Assembly (NCBI RefSeq): GCF_000565215.1
Contig: NZ_CP006934.1
Span: forward strand, 434,001-498,000
Length of the DNA: 64,000 nt
Direction of reading: 5' to 3'
Origin: Spiroplasma sabaudiense Ar-1343
Lineage (GTDB): Bacteria > Bacillota_I > Bacilli_A > Mycoplasmatales > Mycoplasmataceae
The position numbers and the translations under genes are program-made. The notes below the pieces were generated by a model. It was not told the origin of the DNA. It saw nothing but the letters and a program-made list of their open reading frames with translations, and ran no database searches. Below, one piece after another: positions 26,034 through 47,698 of this stretch (the stretch's first letter is position 1; the number at the start of each line of letters is the position of its first letter).

Positions 26034-27797
26034 ATGGATAATAAAAAAATAACAGGCGAAATGGTTTTAAACGAAGCAAGCTTTACAATGCTGAGAGAAA
26101 TTGACTCATCTTCAGTCAGCATGATTTCTGAACTCGTTGATAACTCTTTAGGATCACTAGGTAATAATATTTATAAAGGAAAACACTTCATAGAAATAAT
26201 AATTAAAAGAAAAGAAAATAGGGAATATGACTTAATTATTATAGACAACTGTGGTGGAATTGATGCCAGAGAAATAGATAATGTAATGACATATGGAGAC
26301 CGAAAAGATTATAAGGAACCATTTTTTAATGTATTTGGGGTAGGATTGAAAAGAGCTGCGATTTGGTCGGGAACCGGAATGCAAATTTTTTCTAAGCATG
26401 AAAGCGGTGGTTTTGAATTGAACTTTGATTTTTATGAAGAAATAAATGGCAAAATAAATATGAACTCAGAGAACAGAGAATATTCTTATATGAGAAATGA
26501 TCCCGATATTAATTTCATCTTAAATCCTTCAAGAAAAGTTGTTTATGGAACTAAAATAGTTTTTAAAAATCTGATAAGAGATAAAGATAACAAGTATAAT
26601 GATAATAATCTATTTCACCTTGAAAATTACCTAGGTTGAAGATATTCCAAATATATAAAAAACGACAATATCGAAATTTCTTTAAGCGAGTTAAACGAGA
26701 ATAACGACGTTATCGAAGATGGGATATTAAACCATGAATCCAAAATAGTCAGACCATCAGCTCCAGCTTTTGAAAATTTTGGTATTTTCTATAATTTTTT
26801 GGAAAAAAAATATGCAAATCTGCATCTCACTAAGAATGATGTCTTGAATTTTATTAAGGATAAAACTAAAAATGAATTTGATAAAGTCGAAGACCGAGAG
26901 TTTATTTTTGATTTACTACACAATGAATTAGATTTATGTATTGAGCAAGAATTTAAATACAAAGATAAAATTTTAAAAGAAGAGGTTTCCCTTCCATTCA
27001 AGATTGGGATGACAACTTTTAAAAATATAAAATACCCCACAAGAGTTTTTAATAATTATAAAGAGGTTATGGGGATAAGTCTTTATCAAGCTGACAGAGC
27101 ACTAGAACATGGCCCTAATCTAGAAAATAATAAAAAATTTCAAAATAGATTATTGGATAATTTTCATAGGCAAAACAAGGGTAGCGGCAAGACCTGAAAT
27201 ACTAGGATTATTGGAGAAATAAATTTAGATAACTATATAAAGTTGGTCTACTCGCAGAATAAGGAAGCTGAAAGCGCTCTTGGAACAATTAAAGACCAGT
27301 TTAGGATAAAAGATGATGTGTGGATTAAATTTTCGGACAAAATGATAGAAATCTGCGATAAAGTTTATGGTAACTTTTTTAGAGAATATAATGACCTACA
27401 GAAAAATTTTGAAGTAAAGTTTAAAGAGTGAAAAAAAATCCAAAGCGGGGAAAATAGTAAACTTGATTTAGTTGTGGAATCCAAAAAAAATGAAATTAAG
27501 GCTCCTCGGTGCGAAGACAGAATAATTGAAAAATTAGATGGAGTGAATATAGTATATTTTTTTGAAGATTTTTATTCTGATAAATTGATTTCAGATTTTG
27601 ACATAAAACCCGAAAGTGACACCCTTGAGATTTATCTAAATAAACTATATTTTAACAGTAAAAACATTTCATTTTTTGAAGATTTTGTGAAACTCTTTTT
27701 TTTGAAAAATAATTTTATTTCTAATGAAATAAAGGATGAAAAGGATAAACGAGCAGATTGATTAAATAAGAAAGGAATAAAATGAAAGAAAAAATAG
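26034..27797 (+). CDS. MORC/MutL-like GHKL ATPase of the DndC-type operon
   Basis: 587 residues; UGA is Trp at 26637, 27195, 27429 and 27759. N box SELVDNS (Glu33, Asp36, Asn37), G1 box DNCGGID (71-77), G2 box FGVGLKRA (101-108). The spacing and FGVGLKxA are typical of MORC-type GHKL ATPases found in restriction-like operons beside Z1 proteins. The C-terminal 400 residues are charged and largely helical, with a tail of several Lys. Its 3' end overlaps the Z1 gene start by 16 bases. Presumed role: ATP-driven DNA clamp or remodeller in a defence complex; inference from family and neighbours. Confidence 0.8.
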
Positions 27798-29323
27798 CAT
27801 TTCGAACTTTGGATGAAATAAAGAAAATGTTTGAAGAACAACAAAATAGCAAATTTAAAACTCAAAATTATCACAATGATCATATATTTAATTTTTTTAA
27901 AGATTTGAAAAGTGACGAAAATATAGAGTTTAATTTTGAAAATATTAAAAGATCTTTAACTTTAGATAGCTTTAAAGATAACAAAAAGACAATTCTTTTA
28001 ATTGGTGAGGTTCAATCAGGAAAGACAAGGAATATGTTAAAAATGCTTGATTATGTTTTAAATGAAAAAGATTATCACGATGTTTTTTGAATCTGTGGAA
28101 CTAACAATAATTTATTATCACAGAGCATTAAAAGATTAAGAGATGAGGAAAACCTTGATTTGCACTCCTATGAAATTGGGTATTTGGAATATTTAAAATC
28201 CAAAGAAACCCCAGTTACTTTAAAGCGAGAAATTGAGTTAAGAGATAAAGTTTTGGCAGTTAGCTTGAAAAATAAACTTCAACTAGAAAATTTAAATAGA
28301 GGAATTACTTTTGCTGACACACTTTGTTCTGAAAGGAATTTATTAATAATAGATGATGAATGTGATTTTATGTCGCTTTCAAAAGATAATAATTCAAACG
28401 AGATTAAAGCTAACCATAAGTTACTTATGAGTTTATTAAATAATAAAGTATATAAAAAAACCGCATATGTCGGTGTTACGGCGACTCCTTATGGAAATTT
28501 CAATTATGAGAGAAGCAAAGACCTATTTCCTGAAGAAGTTGTCCTACTAAATCGCAGTAAAACGGAATACACGGGTTTAAATTGATTCAACGAAAGGTCT
28601 AAAGATATCTATATTAACCTAAATACTGAAAAAACTGATGAAAATCAATACACAATAGATGTCGCCATTATTAATCATGCACATGCTATATATAAAAATC
28701 CTAAAAAATTTTCTGAAATGCTAATAAATATTGATTTAGATATTTTAAACCACGATATTTACAGCTCTAAAGTTAATAAATCATTGAGAAATTGAATAAG
28801 ATTGTATGAAAATAATTTTCAAACTTTTAAAATTGAATTAAATAAGTGTTTGAAAATTCTTAATCATCCCACAAAAGATATAGATACCGAAGTTTTTTAT
28901 AAAATCATTAAAGAAATTAAAAAAGATGAGATTTTTATTTTAAATGGAGATAATAGTCAAAATGATAAGTTTCAATCTGGTAGGCAAAATGCAATTATTA
29001 TCGGAGGCGTAATGGTTTCTAGAGGTTATACTTTTGAAAATTTAAAAACGGAAATAATGATAAATGCACCAAAGGCCGAAAATAAGGTAAACATCGGTGT
29101 TCTGTTACAAAGAGCTCGTTGATTTGGTTACAGAAGGGAAAGCGAGAAATACATGAGAATTATTTTGAATTCTAAAATTATTAAATCTTATCATGAAGCA
29201 GAAATTGTTCAATCTGAGCTTTTTTCTTTTTTTGGTCAAACAGGTGTTTTTAAGAGACCTCATGAAATAACTGAACATTTGGAAGTAATATCAAGAAAAC
29301 TAAATTACTTGGAGGTAAAATAA
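27782..29323 (+). CDS. Z1-domain SF2-like ATPase
   Basis: 513 residues. Walker A GEVQSGKT (75-82), Walker B IIDDE (about 189-193), motif III GVTATPYGN, and the Z1 signature GGVMVSRGYTFENL followed by LLQRARWFGYR. Z1 proteins accompany MORC-type GHKL ATPases and are thought to act as the translocase of those systems. It is somewhat short compared with Z1 proteins of 800 or more residues, so accessory domains are missing. The stop overlaps the next ATG by one base (TAATG), meaning coupled translation. Confidence 0.85.
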
Positions 29324-30225
29324 TGAAGGAAATTTTTCACAAAAAAGATGATAATATCGAGATACTAATAAGAGGTGAAATTGGTTCAAGAGTTGAGGCC
29401 CACATAGCAATGCCCGTTACACAGACTAAAAGAAAAATATCTAAATACAGTAAGTTTTATTATATAAACTGTCTGGAAGTAAGTGATTCAAATCAAGTTC
29501 GCTATAACGAACAAATAAGTTTTATTATGGATTCTTTGACAGTTAGCGAAGTAAAAAACATTTACAACTTTATTGTTGAAAGTCTAAAAAAGCCAGAGAT
29601 AAAGACCCTTAAAGACTGCATTAAACTTGTGATGTCTACATTTGGAAGAGTTTTAGGCCTTACTTATGAAAAAATAGTGGGATTGGCGGGAGAGCTGCTT
29701 TTGGTTGACACACTATTTAAAAAAGGGATTGATATAAGTGCCTTTTTTCACGAAAGAGATAACATGCTCTACGATTTTTATTTTGAAAAAAGTTCCTCAT
29801 ATTTGGAAGTAAAATCTACAACAAACCTTAATGAAACACATTCAATTAAGCTAGATCAATTAAGTAAAAATTCTAAAAAGACATCATTTATCACTGTTAA
29901 ATTTAATGAAGATAGTAATGGGGAAAAATTAATAGAAATTATTGATAGAATTTTAGAAAATAAAAATTTCGATTATGAATTCTTAAATAAACTTGGCGAT
30001 TTAAGAACCACAGTCGAACCAGACTTAATTGCGCAAGAACATTGCTTTGATACAAAGAACATAGATTTTAAGTTATATGTACCCGAAGTAATTCAGAAAA
30101 ACATTTCTATACTAAGCCTTTTGTCAGAAAATAAAAACTGAAATCACATTGAAAAAATAACCCTAGACTTAAATTTATCAGGAATTATATCAAATGAAAT
30201 AGAAGATATCAAAGAGATGATCTAA
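29323..30225 (+). CDS. DUF4420, PD-(D/E)XK nuclease-fold protein
   Basis: 300 residues. The second half carries GLAGELLLVDTLF (conserved Glu helix) and DFYFEKSSSYLEVKSTT, that is D-x(n)-ExK of a PD-(D/E)XK nuclease with the usual hydrophobic strands. DUF4420 proteins are regular partners of Z1 and GHKL genes. It is the likely DNA-cutting subunit of this operon. Start overlaps the Z1 stop; the DndC-like gene starts directly after its stop codon. Confidence 0.8.
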
Positions 30226-31635
30226 GTGAAACAATCAACTAAGGAAAAGTCTGAAAAAGCTATTCAGGAAATAAAAAGAATCTACAAAAGAGACGATTCT
30301 CCATTCCTTATAGGGTACTCGGGTGGTAAAGACTCCACCCTAACTTTAGAGCTTGTTCTAAACGCTTTAAATCAAATTTATATTTCTGACAGTAATCTTA
30401 TAAACAAAGTAACTTATGTCATCTCTTCAGATACATTAATTGAAAATCCTTTTGTTGTAAATAGAATAAAGGAATTTGAAATTTTTTCAAATTCTCCAGA
30501 AGCAAAAAAGCTAAAAATTGAATTTATAAGCGTTAAACCTGAAGTAGATGAAACCTTTTGAACGCTTTTAATAGGTAGAGGATATCCCTTACCACTCAAT
30601 AGATTTAGATGGTGCACCAGACACTTAAAAATAAATCCTATTGAAAATAACACCTATAAAATTCAAGAAAAGCATCCCACGGTAATCAATGTACTAGGAA
30701 TTAGAAGAAATGAATCAGCAGTAAGAAGATCAAGAATCGAAAAATCTCAAATCGATAATGAATATTATTTGTTTCAAAATTTTGAAGAGGAGAGAAATAT
30801 TATTTTTGCACCTATAATTGATTTTGAAATTCATGATTTGTGAAATTATTTGCGTTTTATAGAAAAAAGCTTTTGAGGATCGAACCTGAACATTTTATAT
30901 CAAATGTATCAAGACTCTTCAAAGGAATGCCTAAACTCTTTTGATATGAAGCAAGTTGATAATAAAGGGGATTCGTGTGGAAACTCAAGATGAGGGTGTT
31001 GAGTCTGCCCACTCTCAAATAAAATTTGAATTGATAACATGCACAGTAATGGTATTCAAAATTTAGAACCCGTTGTCAAGTTTCGAAAGCTATTGTTATC
31101 GGAGAGGGATAAACAAATAAATAGATACGCAGGCAAACATGTAAGACGTTCCAATGGTACTTACTCGCTTGGAATAAGAGGTTGACAAAAACTTAAATTT
31201 GATGAAGAAAATAATGCTCACTTTATTCCAAAAAAAGGAATTCATAGGGAAAGGGTTGATGTAGTTATAAATGATGTGCTGCAAAAAAAATATAAAATTT
31301 TAGAATCTACGGAATTAAATAAGAATCTTGCCAAAAAAATTTACAATGATGAAAAGGGATTAACTTCTGCTCACTTTGTAAAAAAAGTGGAAAATGAATA
31401 CTTTGTTCTAGCGCCGGGACCATACACTATTAAATATAGGGCTAACATCTTAAGAAGACTCATTGAATTAAGGGAAACTTACAAAGATTTAGAAATAAAT
31501 TCAGGAATCGAATATGCAAAAATTTCAATTATCTCAGATTCTGAGATATCAAGAATTAAAGAATTACTTTTGTTAAATGCTAAAGCTATTTCAGAAGAAA
31601 AACTGAACAAGTTAAAAATCTGGTTGGAGGGGTAG
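30226..31635 (+). CDS. DndC/SspD-like DNA-sulfuration (PAPS reductase-fold) enzyme
   Basis: 469 residues from GTG 30226. The ATP-pyrophosphatase loop SGGKDST is at 32-38. The family Cys are all present: WCTRH (Cys130), KEC (Cys235), and the C-terminal CGNSRWGCWVC (Cys251, 258, 261), which is the Fe-S cluster motif of DndC; GIRRNESAVRR also matches. DndC and SspD activate the DNA backbone for sulfur insertion in phosphorothioate modification. The usual partners DndA, DndB, DndD and DndE are not in this window. Embedded as gene 4 in the GHKL-Z1-DUF4420 operon. A sulfur-related DNA modification, or a changed role of the fold, is inference. Confidence 0.85.
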
Positions 31636-31639
31636 AATT

Positions 31640-32521
31640 TTGAATTTATTAGAAATATTACAAAAAATTAAATTACTAAAAAAAATTGATTTTTTTTGTC
31701 AAATTTCACTAGAGAATTTCGAAAAATTAACTCTTGTGTTTAAATGGAAAGATAATCCTACAGAGGTCGAAGAATTTAAAAACCTTTTGATTGATTTAAA
31801 CATTATATATTTAAATAATGATGACGACGACGAATTATGGAAATATTTGGAAATAAATAATTTTAAAAAATTTTTGATAGGGATTTTGAGAGATGATTAT
31901 GAACAATTTATTCATAAGGAAATAATTATAAATTCCATTGAAAAAAAATATGACAGTAGTTTAGAAAAAACGACAGTTACAGAAAATTTCGATCTAAGTC
32001 TAGATTGTGATAAACGATTGGAAGATATTTTTGATCGCGAGATTGACAGGGTAGAATCTATGGAATGGTTGTCAAACAGCAATTCTGAGATGAAAGATGA
32101 AAATAAAATTGTTGGTGAGGCTCTATGGAAAATTGAAAATAATTTTGTCGAAATTGCAATAATTCCTGAGTACATGAACCTTATATATATAGAGAACTTT
32201 GAACAACTCATTGAATTTGTAAAAGGTTATGTTTGAACTATTTATCCATACTTTAATCTTGAGGAATTGATGTATTTTATGAATTATAATGTATTTTTAT
32301 ATGATAATAAAGAAAAAATTAAAAAATTGAAGAAATGCCTTGCTAATTGGGCCAGAAAAAATGATTTAATTTTAATTGATGAAAATTGCTTCTCTAATAT
32401 CAGTTTTGATTCAGAATACAACTATATAAATAACCAAAAAACACACGCAGGAAGTTTTAGTTGCTCAAGGCTAAATAAGATTAGAAAAGCTTTCACACAA
32501 GGAGACTATTTATGAAGTTAG
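31640..32521 (+). CDS. Unknown protein of the DndC-type operon
   Basis: 293 residues from TTG 31640, chosen because GGAGGGG stands 7 bases upstream. UGA is Trp at 32234 and 32513. Acidic, with a run of Asp/Glu near residue 58 (NNDDDDELW); no signal peptide, transmembrane helix or nuclease motif recognised. It overlaps the DUF262 gene start by 10 bases. A small winged-helix or adaptor subunit is possible but nothing in the sequence proves it. Confidence 0.7.
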
Positions 32522-34065
32522 AAAATTTTTACAAATTAAGAATCAGAGATTTTATTTCTATAGAAAAAAAGCACGATTTTTTTGATAAATTTGGTTCGGC
32601 TTTTGAAATTCCTGAATTTCAACGAGACTATAGCTGGGGAAATAGTCAGTTGGAGGAATTTTTTGATGACATCATTGAAGCCAAAAATAAACGTGATAAT
32701 CCAGATTTTTCGTGCCTCGGAATAATCTACTTGTATTATAATAAACATTCTGTCTCTTTTGAAGTTATAGATGGTCAACAAAGATTAACCAGCATTATTT
32801 TGTTAGTTGAGGTTTTCAGAAAAATTTTGTTAGAGGAAGAAATAAAACACTCCCTATTTAATAAAAAAACAAAAAGAAGAATAATTAACGGTTATTCAAA
32901 AGATTGCGTACTTGAGAAAAAATATGTAAAATTCATGGATAAATATTTAAACAATGAAATAAGTGATGATGAGGAAATTAAATCCGATGATGTGTGCAAA
33001 AAGTTTCTATTTACTTATAACTTCTTCTATTCTAAAATAAACGAAACTCATAAGACTAAACAAGAAAAATTAGAACTTTATGAGTTTATTTTGGAAAAAA
33101 TATTTTTTATTTTTTATGTCGAGAGAGATAATGAGGTCAAATATAACTTGTTTATAAAATTAAACAGCAGAGGATCTGAATTACAATTCACAACACTTCT
33201 TAAAAGTCATTTGTATTCAATTGATAATTTCGAAGTTATTGATTCCGAAACAGGAGAAAAGTTTACTCGCCATTTTGCAAGTAAATACGAGAACATGGAA
33301 ACAAAATGATTTTGTCTCATTTCAAAATTAAAAAATAAAGAGCAAAAGTATAGCAAAATTAAGGAAATGTGTGGTTTTTTTGCTCAAAACTACGGGGCTT
33401 ACTTTTATTCCAAACTATCAAAACCTTTTCTGAATGAAGCTAATGATAAAAAACTTTTTGCTAAATATAGAGAAATAGTTAAACATTTGTTTGAAGAATA
33501 CAAAAACGAACTAATAAATAAAAGTATAAGTAAAAATGATTATCAAATAAAACAATTCTTTGAAAAAATGGATACCTATGTTAGAAGGTTTATTAAATAT
33601 TGCATCGAGGAAGAAAAAGATGAATGTATATTTATGCTAAAAAAAATGGCTATAAAAAAATATTTATCATTAATAATTTATATGGATATTGAATATCCTA
33701 AATTTTCAGAGGAATTTAAAGAAAATGTTTTCATGTACTGTTATTTAAGAAAATTAAAAAATTTAGTTGAAAATAACAGATTACCCAGTGGTACAAAAAA
33801 TGAACAAATAAGCCCTAGAAATCTTCATTTTGAGGAGTCTTTAAAAATTATCGTATCAAAAAGTGAAGATAACTGTAAGAAGGTAATTCAACTCATTCAG
33901 GATAAAATAGAGGGTGAAAATTTTGGTGTTTTTGTATCAGAGTTTATTAATAAAAAGGATGAAATTATTGACAATGAAAAATTGAAAAAGGAATTCTTGG
34001 TTGTTGATGAATATCACGAAATTTTTGAAAATCTTATGAAAAAATATGGACTTAATTTAAATTAG
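32512..34065 (+). CDS. DUF262 (GmrS/SspE N-terminal-like) protein
   Basis: 517 residues. DUF262 marks: IPEFQRDYSWGNSQLEEF, VIDGQQRLTSIILL (ParB-like NTP site) and YNLFIKLNSRGSELQ. The helical second half lacks the HxxP motif of DUF1524, so the nuclease half seen in GmrSD and SspE is missing. SspE uses its DUF262 part to sense phosphorothioate DNA. Its position directly after the DndC-like gene suggests a modification-sensing role here. No terminator is evident after it. Confidence 0.8.
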
Positions 34066-39503: not shown

Positions 39504-40679
39504 CTATTTTATAAGCAATTTTATTAATCTTTCCTTAAGTAAGTTTAATTTGTTTTTAATTGAAATCAACTTTTCGATTTTGTCTACAATATTTTGTTCA
39601 TTATATTGAAGGGGTTTTTTCATTTTAATTAGTTTTAAATTAGATAAATTTATTGCTTGCATTGTTGTGCCTGAAGAAAGCTTTTCTTTTTGCTCTTTGA
39701 AGTGTTTTGACATTAAAAATCCAGCTATTTGATCATTATATAAGGTCTGAAAGTTAAAAAAACCTGTTGAGAATACTTCCTCGGGAGCTTTAGAAAAATA
39801 AAACACCTTATTTTCACCGAGTAACTTAGAAATAATAAAACTGTTATTGGCGGGTGAAACATCAGCCCTGGAAGGTTTGATTGAATTAATATCAATAATT
39901 TTATTTAAGTCAATTGAAAATTCGCCAATCGCATTAGTTGCTATATATTCACTTTGTTCATTTCACTTATTATTTTGTAAAGTGATAATATCATAGAAAA
40001 ACACTTCTTCGGTATTTATTGAATTATAATAACTAACTAAATAGTTTTTGATTAAATTAATAATTTTAATTATATAAGATTCAATTTTTTCAATTGGTTC
40101 AATAATGTCAATTATATTTTTTAAATCTTTTTTTGTATTATCAAAAGTATCAATTCTAACGCATTGTGAGAATTTTAAAAATAAACTTTCAATTGGTTCA
40201 ATAATGTCAATTATATTTTGTTGTTCCTCTAGTGAAGGTACATTAAAAATAATTTCCCTTATATCTACAATTTTTATTCTAAAAACTTTTAATCCAGTTG
40301 CATATTTATGAAATTTGTTTTTATTTTTTTTAATCAAATAAAATAGGAATTTATCGATAATAAAATTTTCGATACCTTTTATCGATATTTGCTCACCCCC
40401 CAATATTCCATATATACTGGAGTTTATAAAATATGAGTGTCCTAAATCTTTAATTGTCTCGGACGTAGAAACTAAAACCGTTGATTGATTAATGACAGAT
40501 TTTTCATGATAAAATTTTTTATCTACCTTATGAGGGAAGCTTTCATCAACTAATTCACATTTGTATGTCTTGCCATAGTGAAGAGCTAGAAACTCACCGG
40601 TCTTTTTAAGGTCTTTTTTTTGAAATTTTCCTCCGCCCCTGCACATTATAGAAATTTCACCAAGTTTATAAATAGCCAT
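39504..40679 (-). CDS. hsdS: Type I specificity subunit, probably silent copy (hsdS1)
   Basis: 391 residues, MAIYKLGEI start. First recognition domain about 1-145; a central conserved helix SLEEQQNIIDIIEPIE (147-164) that repeats as NIIDIIEPIEKIE about 34 residues later; then the second domain and a C-terminal helix ending LLIK. Upstream of its ATG there is no Shine-Dalgarno and no promoter, only the terminator hairpin of the recombinase gene at 40687-40713. It therefore appears unexpressed in this orientation and would gain a promoter on inversion. Confidence 0.85.
40080..40119 (-). repeat. Extra copy of the hsdS central repeat inside hsdS1
   Basis: About 39 bases (rc ending ATTGAAAAAATTGAA) repeat part of 40187-40241 within the same gene, and match the 3' side of the hsdS2 central repeat better than that copy does. 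Confidence 0.8.
40187..40241 (-). repeat. 55-bp central inverted repeat, hsdS1 side
   Basis: Identical over 55 bases to 41905-41959 in opposite orientation; encodes the SLEEQQNIIDIIEPIE helix between recognition domains. Recombination here would exchange the first recognition domains. Confidence 0.9.
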
Positions 40680-40684
40680 TAAAA
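40652..40684 (-). repeat. 33-bp inverted repeat at the hsdS1 start
   Basis: Identical to 41486-41518 in opposite orientation, covering TTTTA plus the first nine codons of both hsdS genes. Inversion here flips the recombinase gene and the promoter region between the two hsdS starts. Confidence 0.92.
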
Positions 40685-40686
40685 AA

Positions 40687-40713
40687 CAGTGGTTACATTA
40701 AATGTAACCACTG
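40687..40713 (-). terminator. Terminator of the recombinase gene
   Basis: 12-bp stem CAGTGGTTACAT / ATGTAACCACTG with a TAA loop, followed by TTTTTT on the minus strand. It overlaps the recombinase stop and insulates hsdS1. Confidence 0.85.
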
Positions 40714-41420
40714 TAAATTTTTCAATTATCTTCTACCGATAGATTAAGATATCTAAAAGTTGTTTCTATTTTTTCATGACCAAGTTGCAACATAACCATT
40801 TTTGGACTGGCACCATGAGTAAGTAAATGTGTCGCATGGGATCTTCTTATTGAATGTGGGGTAAACTCACTACCCAAAATTTCTTTGACCCAAGCCCTTA
40901 ATGTTTTAGTTGTTAGAGTAAACTTCTCAAGTTTTTCGGTTGTTTCAAAACAGTGAAATATTTCTCTAATTTTATTTCCCTTTCCAATAATTACGATTGT
41001 TTTACGATTTATTTCAATGATTTTTTTAAGTTCTTCAGCTCTGATGCCTGTCTCAAACAAAAATTTCATTAAAAGTTTTTTTTGAACTAAACTTTTTGAA
41101 TCAAATTCGTTAATTAATGTTTTTTTTAATAAAAATTCCTTATTAAAAACCGCCCTATATATTTTTGGAATCCTTGGTAATTTAAATTGTTTAAGTTCCT
41201 TTATCCGTTTGTCCTTCGATCAATTCATATAAGAGCAAATTATATTAAAGTGTGTTCATGCTGTATTGGGTGAATTAAAATAATTTGAAATGATATGTTT
41301 TATTTTTTTCACGTCATTAAATACGTAAAGATACCTATTTAAAACACTTGTATAAGTTTTTACAGTATTTTTACTGTACATATTTAAAATTAAGAAATTC
41401 AAGAAATTTTCTATTTTCAT
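40698..41420 (-). CDS. Tyrosine recombinase (XerC/D-like) of the hsdS switch
   Basis: 240 residues from ATG 41420 with a perfect SD (AGGAGGTG). N-terminal SAM-like domain (SKNTVKTYTSVLNRYL), then catalytic region: ETGIRAEEL (Arg I), HSIRRSHATHLL (H-x-x-R), LGHEKIETTFRYL (His and nucleophile Tyr). Two UGA Trp codons. Somewhat shorter than chromosomal XerC/D (about 300). Sitting between two inverted hsdS genes, it is the expected enzyme for their inversion, as in other phase-variable type I loci. Its gene flips with the segment. Confidence 0.88.
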
Positions 41421-41490
41421 ATTTTCACCTCCTTTATTTAAGTATTTTACTTAAATATAGTAAAATAGATATAAAGAAAGAGGTGTTTTA
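41421..41490. promoter_or_regulatory. Divergent promoter region for recombinase and hsdS2
   Basis: Seventy bases holding a perfect dyad ATTTAAGTA-TTT-TACTTAAAT (41436-41456), a -10-like TATAGTAAAAT and SD AAAGAGGTG for hsdS2, and AGGAGG for the recombinase. The dyad may be an operator or the recombinase core site. This is the only promoter-like region for either hsdS. Confidence 0.6.
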
Positions 41491-41518
41491 ATGGCTATTT
41501 ATAAACTTGGTGAAATTT
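41486..41518 (+). repeat. 33-bp inverted repeat at the hsdS2 start
   Basis: Partner of 40652-40684; identical in opposite orientation. Confidence 0.92.
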
Positions 41519-42528
41519 GTTTTTCAGTAAGCGAAACTTCAAAAGCAGAATTACCAATTTACACTTTAAATACATCGGACTTACTTAGAAATGAAGTGAA
41601 TCCTGTATTTGAAAATGAGAAAATTCTAGGTCAATTTAAGAAAACTGCGAAAAAGTCTGACATACTTTTTTCCGAAATAAGACCAGGCAATGGGAGATGA
41701 GCTTTACTAAATGAGGATTTAAAAAATTGTTTAATATCTACTAAAATTTTAGTTTTAAGGTGTATTTCTAAAATCATTTTACCTAAATTTCTTTATTTAT
41801 TAATTACTTGTAAAATAAATAAAGAAATTGTTAAAATAGCAGAGAATAGAAGTGGAACTTTTCCTCAAATAACTTTTACAGAGATTTCTAGAATTGAATT
41901 AGAAGTACCTTCACTAGAGGAACAACAAAATATAATTGACATTATTGAACCAATTGAAAAAATTGAACGTTTAATTTTGGAAATTAATGAAAAGTTAATT
42001 AGTTTAATTAAAAATATGAGAGAGAAAAATGATTTCGAATTAATAAATAATCTAGTAGTGAAAGAGAAAAATGCTAAAAAAAATATAAATCAAATTTCTG
42101 CGAAGATTCTAAAAAAACAAAATCCAGTCATAAGTGGTTTTGAGCAACCTAATACATATAAAACTAATAGTTTTTATGCACCGCAAGGAACTTTTTTATT
42201 TTGTTCAATAAGAACTTATCAAAAAAAATTTGGAATTATGCCATATGAAGCCGATTATAATGGAACATTATTTGCATATAAGGTAATAAAAAATCAAACC
42301 TCATTGCTCCATTCTCTATTAAATAATAAAATTTGACTTGATTTTGATAGTTTATCAAAAGGAACAAAAATGCCGGTTCTCTCTGAAGAAGACTTCCTCA
42401 AAAAAATAAAAATACCTCTAGTAGAGTTTGAAATTAAAAATATTTTTGATTTTTTTATTAAAATAAATAGAACACTATTAAAGATTGAATATTTAAAAAA
42501 TAATCTAATAAAAATTCTTATAAAATAA
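41491..42528 (+). CDS. hsdS: Type I specificity subunit, expressed copy (hsdS2)
   Basis: 345 residues, MAIYKLGEI start identical to hsdS1, then a different first recognition domain (ICFSVSETSKAELPIYTLN), the shared central helix SLEEQQNIIDIIEPIEKIE (about 139-157), a second recognition domain and a C-terminal helix ending ILIK. SD AAAGAGGTG and the divergent promoter support expression. It sets the target sequence of HsdM and HsdR in the present orientation. Shorter than hsdS1 mainly because it lacks the duplicated central segment and has a shorter second domain. Confidence 0.88.
41905..41959 (+). repeat. 55-bp central inverted repeat, hsdS2 side
   Basis: Partner of 40187-40241 in opposite orientation, identical over 55 bases. 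Confidence 0.9.
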
Positions 42529-45928: not shown

Positions 45929-47698
45929 ATGAATAAAAAATATAATCTTGATTTCTTAAAAATATCCGACTTCTTAAAAAGAGAAAATGCTATATTTAAA
46001 ATACCAGTTTATCAAAGAAATTATTCTTGAAACAAACAAGTCAACACGCTACTTAATGATATTTATGATTCAACTTTAGATTCCGGTTTTTTCATAGGAG
46101 TTATTTTTTGTTCAGAAGGCAAGAACGAAGAAATTTTAATTGTAGATGGGCAGCAAAGGTTGGTTACAATCTCTATTATTTTGAGTACAATTTTAAAAAT
46201 TTTAGATAGAAACCTTAAAGAGGAAGCAAAAAATGAAACGGAAGAAAATAAATCAAAAACAAAATTATTAATGGAAGATATTGAAGAATGCATTTTTAAA
46301 AATCAAAAAATAAAAAATAAACTTAAATTACAAACATACAAAGATAAAAATATTTTAGGTAAAGTCTTGGATAAGGATTATTCCCCTAAAAATTTAAGTA
46401 ATGATGAGAAAAAACACAAACTTGTAGATAGTTCAAAAAAAATTAATGATTTTTTTAAGGACAAAGATACTTCGGATATAATAGAATTTGCTAAAAAATT
46501 ATTGAAAACAAATTTAGTTTGCTTAAATTTAAGTGAATTTGAAGTAAATAGAAATGAACTTTTTGAAGCCTTCAATTCGAAGAACGAGCCTCTAAAAAAT
46601 TTTGATTTAATAACAAATTTGATTTTTATGAAAATTGAAAACGAAGAACTTCAAGAAAAAATTTATCGTGAAGAATGGGAAAATCAATTTCAAGATGAAA
46701 ATGGTGAAGTTTCAGAAAAATTTCTTAGAGATTTTATATCTATGAAAACGCTTAATAAGGCGGTGGACAAAGGTTATGATATTTATGAGCGTTTTAAAAA
46801 TATGATCTCAAAGTTTGAAGCGAAGAACAATGAAAAGTTGATAGATGAAATAAAAAAATTAATTAGAGAAATGAAGAAATTTTATGAGATTTACAATTTT
46901 ATAAAGACTGACTCAAGAATTAAAAAAACATATGGAAAATTAGACATTGATGAGCAAAGACTTTTTGAATATAAATTTTTAGGCGTTGATTCCGCTGACT
47001 CATTCATAATGTATCTTATCGACAGATTGATAGATAAAAAACTAATTCCAGGACATTTCGATTTGTTAATCAAACACATTACAAATTATCTCTATAAGAA
47101 AAAAATTATGGGTCCTACTGCTCAAAATAGAATTTTGTTTATTGAAATTCTTAAAAAATGCAAAGAAGAAGAAAACAATGAAAAAAATAATAGAAACTGA
47201 ATTTTTGACATATTTACTTCGACTATAAAAAATCACACAGATAAAGGAGATAATTTTAGAAATAATACTAATAAAGAATTTATGGACAGCGTAAAAATCG
47301 GTTTTAAGAAACATGAAGATTCCAAACTTTTTTTTGTTTTACTAAATGATAATTTAAAAACAGGCTTCAAACCTAAAACTATAGACGAATTTAAAAATAT
47401 TACAGTAGAACACATAGTTCCTCAAGCATTTAAAAAAATCCCCGAATGAACCGAATTAATGGCATCAGAAAAAGACACTTTTAATTTAAATAAAATTTCC
47501 AATTTAACAATACTTAGTGAGCCCGAAAACTCTAAAACGGGTAGTAAAATTTTTGATAAAAAAATGAAAATAATCCCCACGTCTATCTTTAAAATAAATT
47601 TAGAAATGGCTAGTTATAAAAATATTAGTGATCTTGATGAAAAATGATTTAAATATTTAAAAGAAAGATATAGCAAAACTATTTCGGAAATAACATAA
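45929..47698 (+). CDS. DUF262-DUF1524 protein (GmrSD / SspE-like)
   Basis: 589 residues, SD AAAGAGGT. N-terminal DUF262: FKIPVYQRNYSWNKQ and VDGQQRLVTISIIL (Asp73 onward). C-terminal DUF1524 His-Me nuclease: TVEHIVPQAF with His495, followed by the Asn-rich LNKISNLTILS typical of the family. These proteins act as type IV, modification-dependent restriction (GmrSD on glucosylated DNA, SspE on phosphorothioate DNA). It lies 29 bases after the REase gene and may belong to that operon. Complete, unlike the DUF262-only gene at 32512. Confidence 0.85.

Follow-up and report, generated by a model that had tools for sequence, protein, structure and literature searches.

What marks the host's own DNA as self when a restriction-type operon carries no DNA methyltransferase? 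This question is raised by six adjoining genes of Spiroplasma sabaudiense Ar-1343, which lie in a 64,000-nucleotide stretch of contig NZ_CP006934.1 (the window, to which all coordinates without a locus label refer). The original prediction held that a set of GHKL, Z1 and DUF4420 proteins is joined here to a DndC-like enzyme of DNA sulfuration and to a DUF262 sensor, and that a backbone-sulfur mark may replace methylation as the self signal. We assign a probability of roughly 0.6 to the reading that these genes form a restriction-modification (R-M)-like defence operon whose self mark would come from the DndC-like, sulfur-type enzyme and not from a methyltransferase. Profile searches found no methyltransferase among the six genes, and the HsdM protein encoded nearby is part of a full type I system.

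Linkage of DndC to a GHKL-Z1-DUF4420 chassis

The check on which the original prediction chiefly depended, namely co-occurrence of DndC with GHKL and Z1, was run on 320 genomes of the host's order, with genomes outside the order sampled only; loci were classified partly by motif, and many contigs are short. A full-length DndC-like gene is present in eight of these genomes, including that of the window, and in every one of the eight it shares a tight operon with genes for GHKL, Z1 and DUF4420 proteins. Three arrangements occur. The order GHKL-Z1-DUF4420-DndC-gene5-DUF262 is found in the window, L010 (genome G049) and L011 (G051), the order DndC-GHKL-Z1-DUF4420 in L012, L013, L015 and L016, and, in L014, the order DndC-GHKL-Z1-DUF4420-DUF262, whose final two genes seem to be disrupted. 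The linkage has persisted through a change of gene order. Comparison of the three arrangements identifies DndC, GHKL, Z1 and DUF4420 as the core, with gene 5 and DUF262 as optional add-ons. Because the DUF4420 and DUF262 genes of L014 (3687-6130) are each divided into two open reading frames, its nuclease arm may have decayed; its DndC, GHKL and Z1 genes are intact.

Beyond this group the combination was not encountered. Within 9 kb of the 80 nearest DndC genes from named genomes there is neither a Z1 nor a DUF4420 gene; DndD lies near 79 of them, and DndD together with DndE near 73. Neither these 80 loci nor 77 viral loci join DndC with Z1 and DUF4420. In 395 Bacilli genomes, every strong Z1 match beyond the order was to a long form (their neighbourhoods were left unopened). 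Seven plasmid Z1 loci out of 17 were inspected and had no annotated DndC or PAPS reductase, and a viral Z1 scan gave no relatives. As the original prediction had supposed, no named system with this composition emerged from PADLOC, NCBIfam or the open-access literature searched. One DndC gene among the 80, that of Kroppenstedtia guangzhouensis (L079:8962-10224), is the sole one for which no DndB, DndD or DndE homologue was found nearby.

The most informative evidence comes from what occupies the position of DndC in related operons. Seventy-odd Z1 loci of the order were gathered and classified by script, with methyltransferases called by motif; a Z1 protein under 560 amino acids (aa) was counted as short, and the slot was defined as the operon or a directly adjoining gene. 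In short-Z1 loci the slot is occupied by DndC in 8 cases (window included), by a second PAPS-reductase-like protein in 15 and by a DNA methyltransferase in 7, with no recognised enzyme in 10, most of which are on truncated contigs. A Pfam check of six of the seven methyltransferases identified two C5, three D12 and one N4/N6 enzyme, the seventh (L236) being called by motif only, and GHKL-bearing long-Z1 loci carry a C5 methyltransferase, again by motif, in 14 of 17 cases. No short-Z1 operon combines two kinds of slot enzyme, the exceptions being neighbours of L010, where a D12 methyltransferase and a DpnII-like protein are encoded directly upstream and look like a separate R-M pair, and of L013, where a divergent methyltransferase gene lies just past the operon end. 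This alternation, our main evidence, places the DndC-like protein in the mark-making position. Since related loci carry a methyltransferase in the same slot, replacement of methylation by a sulfur mark is the natural reading, as originally proposed.

The second PAPS-reductase-like family, which carries SGGKDST and invariant CC...CxxC cysteines, is tied to GHKL-Z1-DUF4420 in another family of mollicutes, an association that is apparently undescribed. None of its 64 viral relatives has Z1, GHKL or DUF4420 nearby. A further arrangement is seen at L142:8151-14496 and L146:2925-8905, where DUF262-GHKL-Z1-(DUF4420-like) operons contain no recognised mark enzyme; an HNH_2 protein adjoins the operon of L142. 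This type may represent a mark-independent or modification-dependent branch.

The DndC-like enzyme and the source of the self mark

The sequence of the slot enzyme is well preserved. The PP-loop SGGKDS and Cys130, Cys235, Cys251, Cys258 and Cys261 are kept in all eight Z1-linked proteins and in 79-80 of the 80 named DndC proteins. The spacing of Cys251-258-261 is identical to that of Cys273-280-283 in Escherichia coli DndC, residues that with Cys146 are predicted ligands of a 4Fe-4S cluster (PMC12193691). PADLOC scores the window protein at 291 bits as DndC, 41.8 as BrxP and 39 as SspD, and the proteins of L012, L014 and L015 exceed the TIGR03183 (DndC) cut-off of 290.4 bits with 325-340 bits. 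In a maximum-likelihood tree of 107 DndC sequences, the eight Z1-linked sequences form one clade (SH-aLRT 99). Trees suggest that two chassis lineages acquired DndC independently; we make no such claim because the approximately unbiased test is compatible with a single clade (p 0.095, 0.265 and 0.161). PADLOC also matches the Z1 and DndC proteins with generic models named 'Helicase_II' and 'MTase_II'. The DndC-like protein also scores 178 bits with PDLC03333, a PADLOC model that bears the label 'Type II methyltransferase' and that may therefore be mislabelled or built from DndC-type proteins.

The following sequence of events would fit this gene content. A housekeeping cysteine desulfurase would provide sulfur; such an enzyme (PF00266, 337-388 bits) is encoded outside the operon in all eight genomes. 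The DndC-like enzyme, with ATP and its Fe-S cluster, would then modify a short motif in host DNA, most likely by phosphorothioation, which is our default guess for the chemistry from family membership. GHKL and Z1 would act as an ATP-driven clamp or translocase that replaces the DNA handling of DndD and DndE and inspects incoming DNA, and unmarked DNA would be cut by the DUF4420 protein. The two extra genes of the six-gene variant, DUF262 and gene 5, probably adjust this activity through mark sensing or regulation of the nuclease.

Several observations weigh against a DndC-made self mark. The window protein scores 263 bits against TIGR03183 and thus falls below the equivalog cut-off. In the eight genomes no DndD was found over its cut-off and no DndE above its own (best 14 bits), in searches whose controls were themselves weak and below cut-off, and no homologue of DndB, DndD or DndE was found in the loci examined. 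Rakesh et al. state that Dnd modification would fail without the ABC-ATPase and DndE (PMC10853773). Finally, methyltransferase cassettes, D12 or other, lie within a few kilobases of L010, L012, L013 and L015, and a type I R-M system adjoins the window operon directly downstream.

These last two observations would suit a model in which a neighbouring or unlinked methyltransferase gives self-protection, to which the DndC-like enzyme adds an accessory second layer. We consider this improbable: by motif calls, the operons of L011, L014 and L016 have no adjoining methyltransferase, the window HsdM sits in a complete HsdR-HsdM-HsdS set, and the L010 D12 enzyme is paired with the DpnII-like protein. 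Because each has its own partner genes, both look like independent R-M systems.

The failure to detect DndD and DndE would favour another model, in which the DndC-like protein is a component of the system without marking host DNA. It might be an ATP pyrophosphatase or sulfur-transfer effector that, for example, damages invader DNA or makes a signal, with self-recognition located elsewhere. PP-loop enzymes do act on many substrates, and a few GHKL-Z1 operons (L142, L146) lack a recognisable mark enzyme. We nevertheless judge the model unlikely, since the same chassis alternates DndC with methyltransferases and since the complete DndC cysteine set, including the predicted 4Fe-4S ligands (PMC12193691), is retained.

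If, as we prefer, the DndC-like enzyme does mark the host, a more specific proposal is that the operon encodes a new type of phosphorothioation machine, in which MORC-like GHKL and Z1 proteins, rather than DndD/DndE or SspB/SspC, guide DndC and restrict unmarked DNA. We advance this tentatively, at a little under even odds. Under the same proposal, the occupation of this slot by a second PAPS-reductase-like family in a different family of mollicutes would imply that sulfur-type enzymes entered the chassis at least twice.

Operon features, partner proteins and surroundings

The host genome (1.076 Mb, a single contig) reads TGA as tryptophan under genetic code 4, a point on which the original prediction was silent. 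Only with this code are the six open reading frames, all on one strand across 26034-34065, intact; a reading under table 11 was rejected because all six break into fragments where TGA encodes tryptophan. Junctions between successive genes measure -16, -1, 0, +4 and -10 bases, which bears out the six same-strand genes and the junction figures given previously, except that the 4 is a gap and not an overlap. Profile searches likewise agree with the earlier family calls, and the motifs SGGKDST, CGNSRWGCWVC and GGVMVSRGYTF are present, with key residues invariant across the eight genomes. The operon is far beyond chance, given that the same gene set recurs in other genomes. A scan of the window returned no Rfam match and no tRNA, and a promoter scan was uninformative (60 seen versus 60.3 expected).

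Table 1. Genes of the operon in the window, and loci of the second PAPS-reductase-like family
Feature	Coordinates	Strand	Details
Gene 1, GHKL ATPase (MORC/SMCHD1-like)	26034..27797	+	587 aa; Pfam HATPase_c_3 5.9e-11
Gene 2, Z1-type superfamily II ATPase, short form	27782..29323	+	513 aa; Pfam Z1 2.8e-19
Gene 3, DUF4420 PD-(D/E)XK nuclease-like	29323..30225	+	300 aa; Pfam DUF4420 6.2e-8
Gene 4, DndC-like PP-loop Fe-S sulfurtransferase	30226..31635	+	469 aa; GTG start; PAPS_reduct 6.7e-8
Gene 5, no Pfam family	31640..32521	+	293 aa; TTG start
Gene 6, DUF262 (GmrSD_N) without HNH	32512..34065	+	517 aa; GmrSD_N 1.4e-27, no GmrSD_C
Second PAPS-reductase-like family	L132:7050-8429
Second PAPS-reductase-like family	L133:9697-11037
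Second PAPS-reductase-like family	L134:10574-12031
Second PAPS-reductase-like family	L136:7972-9375
Second PAPS-reductase-like family	L137:5648-7027
Second PAPS-reductase-like family			ten more loci

Each chassis protein retains its motifs in all eight homologues. The N, G1 and G2 box residues of the GHKL protein, whose nearest solved-structure sequences are SMCHD1 and MORC2, do not change, and the same is true of the Z1 Walker A motif GEVQSGKT, DDE.D and QRARWFGYR, and of G120, E124, D151, E162-x-K164 and Q179 of the DUF4420 protein (G-x3-E...D...E-x-K). Gene 5 has just 15-22% identity to its positional homologues in L010 and L011, and its structure model, built from three sequences, is unusable (predicted local distance difference test score 38.7).

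The DUF262 protein had been called a sensor. When used as a single query against solved structures, its sole significant match is the phosphorothioate-sensing nickase DndI (1.3e-7), and a structure search lists DndI and SspE; the likeness is mainly sequence-based because confidence in the model is low (mean 57.5). It shares with both proteins the DUF262 N-terminal domain and the DGQQR motif, which is invariant, and its Pro34 and Gln37 correspond to residues of the DndI sensing patch. It differs in having Phe36 in place of Tyr25, the phosphorothioate (PT)-sensing residue of DndI, and in having no EHxxP or HxxP motif of an HNH (DUF1524) domain; the second GmrSD protein of the window (45929-47698) does carry an HNH motif. 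The sensor role is weakened by the tyrosine replacement, by the missing HNH, by absence from the four-gene variant, and by a DUF262 gene that also precedes GHKL-Z1 in L142 and L146, where there is no DndC. We suggest that the protein may be a reader or regulator.

That its best matches are the PT readers DndI and SspE also raises the prospect of a type-IV-like attack on sulfur-marked DNA, in which DUF262 reads the mark and DndC regulates. We regard this as very improbable: besides the lack of an HNH motif and of any DUF262 gene in the four-gene variant, a host whose operon also encodes an active mark-making enzyme would be put at risk.

The operon is part of a long defence island (about 23700-58600) that also encodes a KAP NTPase, the type I R-M system, GmrSD, an N6-methyltransferase and a helicase with an MTES_1575 nuclease. 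In a congener (L138, G002), a comparable island differs in content and includes a Z1 protein of 855 aa without GHKL. In the type I locus (39504-42528), two hsdS genes on opposite strands flank a tyrosine recombinase gene, with inverted repeats of 36-68 nucleotides at 87-97%, an architecture that suggests inversion and phase-variable specificity. A similar layout (L010:719-3735) adjoins the six-gene operon of L010.

Comparison with known defence systems

The closest relatives of the chassis are the MORC/paraMORC-Z1 R-M operons (Iyer 2008, PMC2292703) and MZA-like operons, which share GHKL, Z1 and PD-(D/E)XK DUF4420 proteins encoded in a same-strand operon. These carry a DNA methyltransferase and/or AIPR, whereas the window operon has a DndC-like enzyme there and a short Z1. 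A Rathayibacter plasmid has the annotated order dcm, ATP-binding protein, Z1 and PD-(D/E)XK. MZA itself is distinct, since the window Z1 protein matches NCBIfam MzaC (1.8e-14) at 52.7 bits against a cut-off of 1500, MzaD is matched at 24.9 against 420, and the operon has no AIPR (MzaE). The Iyer article makes no mention of DndC or phosphosulfate.

Dnd systems (DndABCDE with DndFGH, DndI or Pbe) share the DndC PP-loop and five cysteines, and a cysteine desulfurase is available here from the host genome. The window operon differs in its ATPases and nuclease and in having no DndD or DndE over cut-off. A Dnd survey (PMC10853773) does not mention GHKL, MORC, DUF4420, DUF262 or mollicutes, and mollicutes are absent from the main text of two surveys of Dnd systems; our findings suggest that DNA sulfur marking occurs in this group.

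Type-4 BREX/Ssp offers a precedent for a PT apparatus in place of methylation: in these larger, ATPase-based defence systems, too, an enzyme of the PAPS-reductase type stands in for the methyltransferase (PMC12839542). Those systems own BrxP/SspD, BrxC/SspC, DUF4007/SspB, PglZ and BrxL, in contrast to the DndC-type enzyme, GHKL, Z1 and DUF4420 found here; a search for DUF4007, run without a positive control, gave no match.

One GHKL-Z1-DUF4420 chassis fitted with C5 or adenine methyltransferases, with DndC or with another PAPS-reductase-like enzyme constitutes a natural series, which makes it testable how one machine reads very different marks and whether DndC can function without DndD and DndE. 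If our reading is true, the operon would join Dnd, Ssp and type-4 BREX as one more case in which a DNA-marking enzyme of the sulfur type was independently combined with restriction machinery, and it would be, to our knowledge, the first with MORC-like ATPases.

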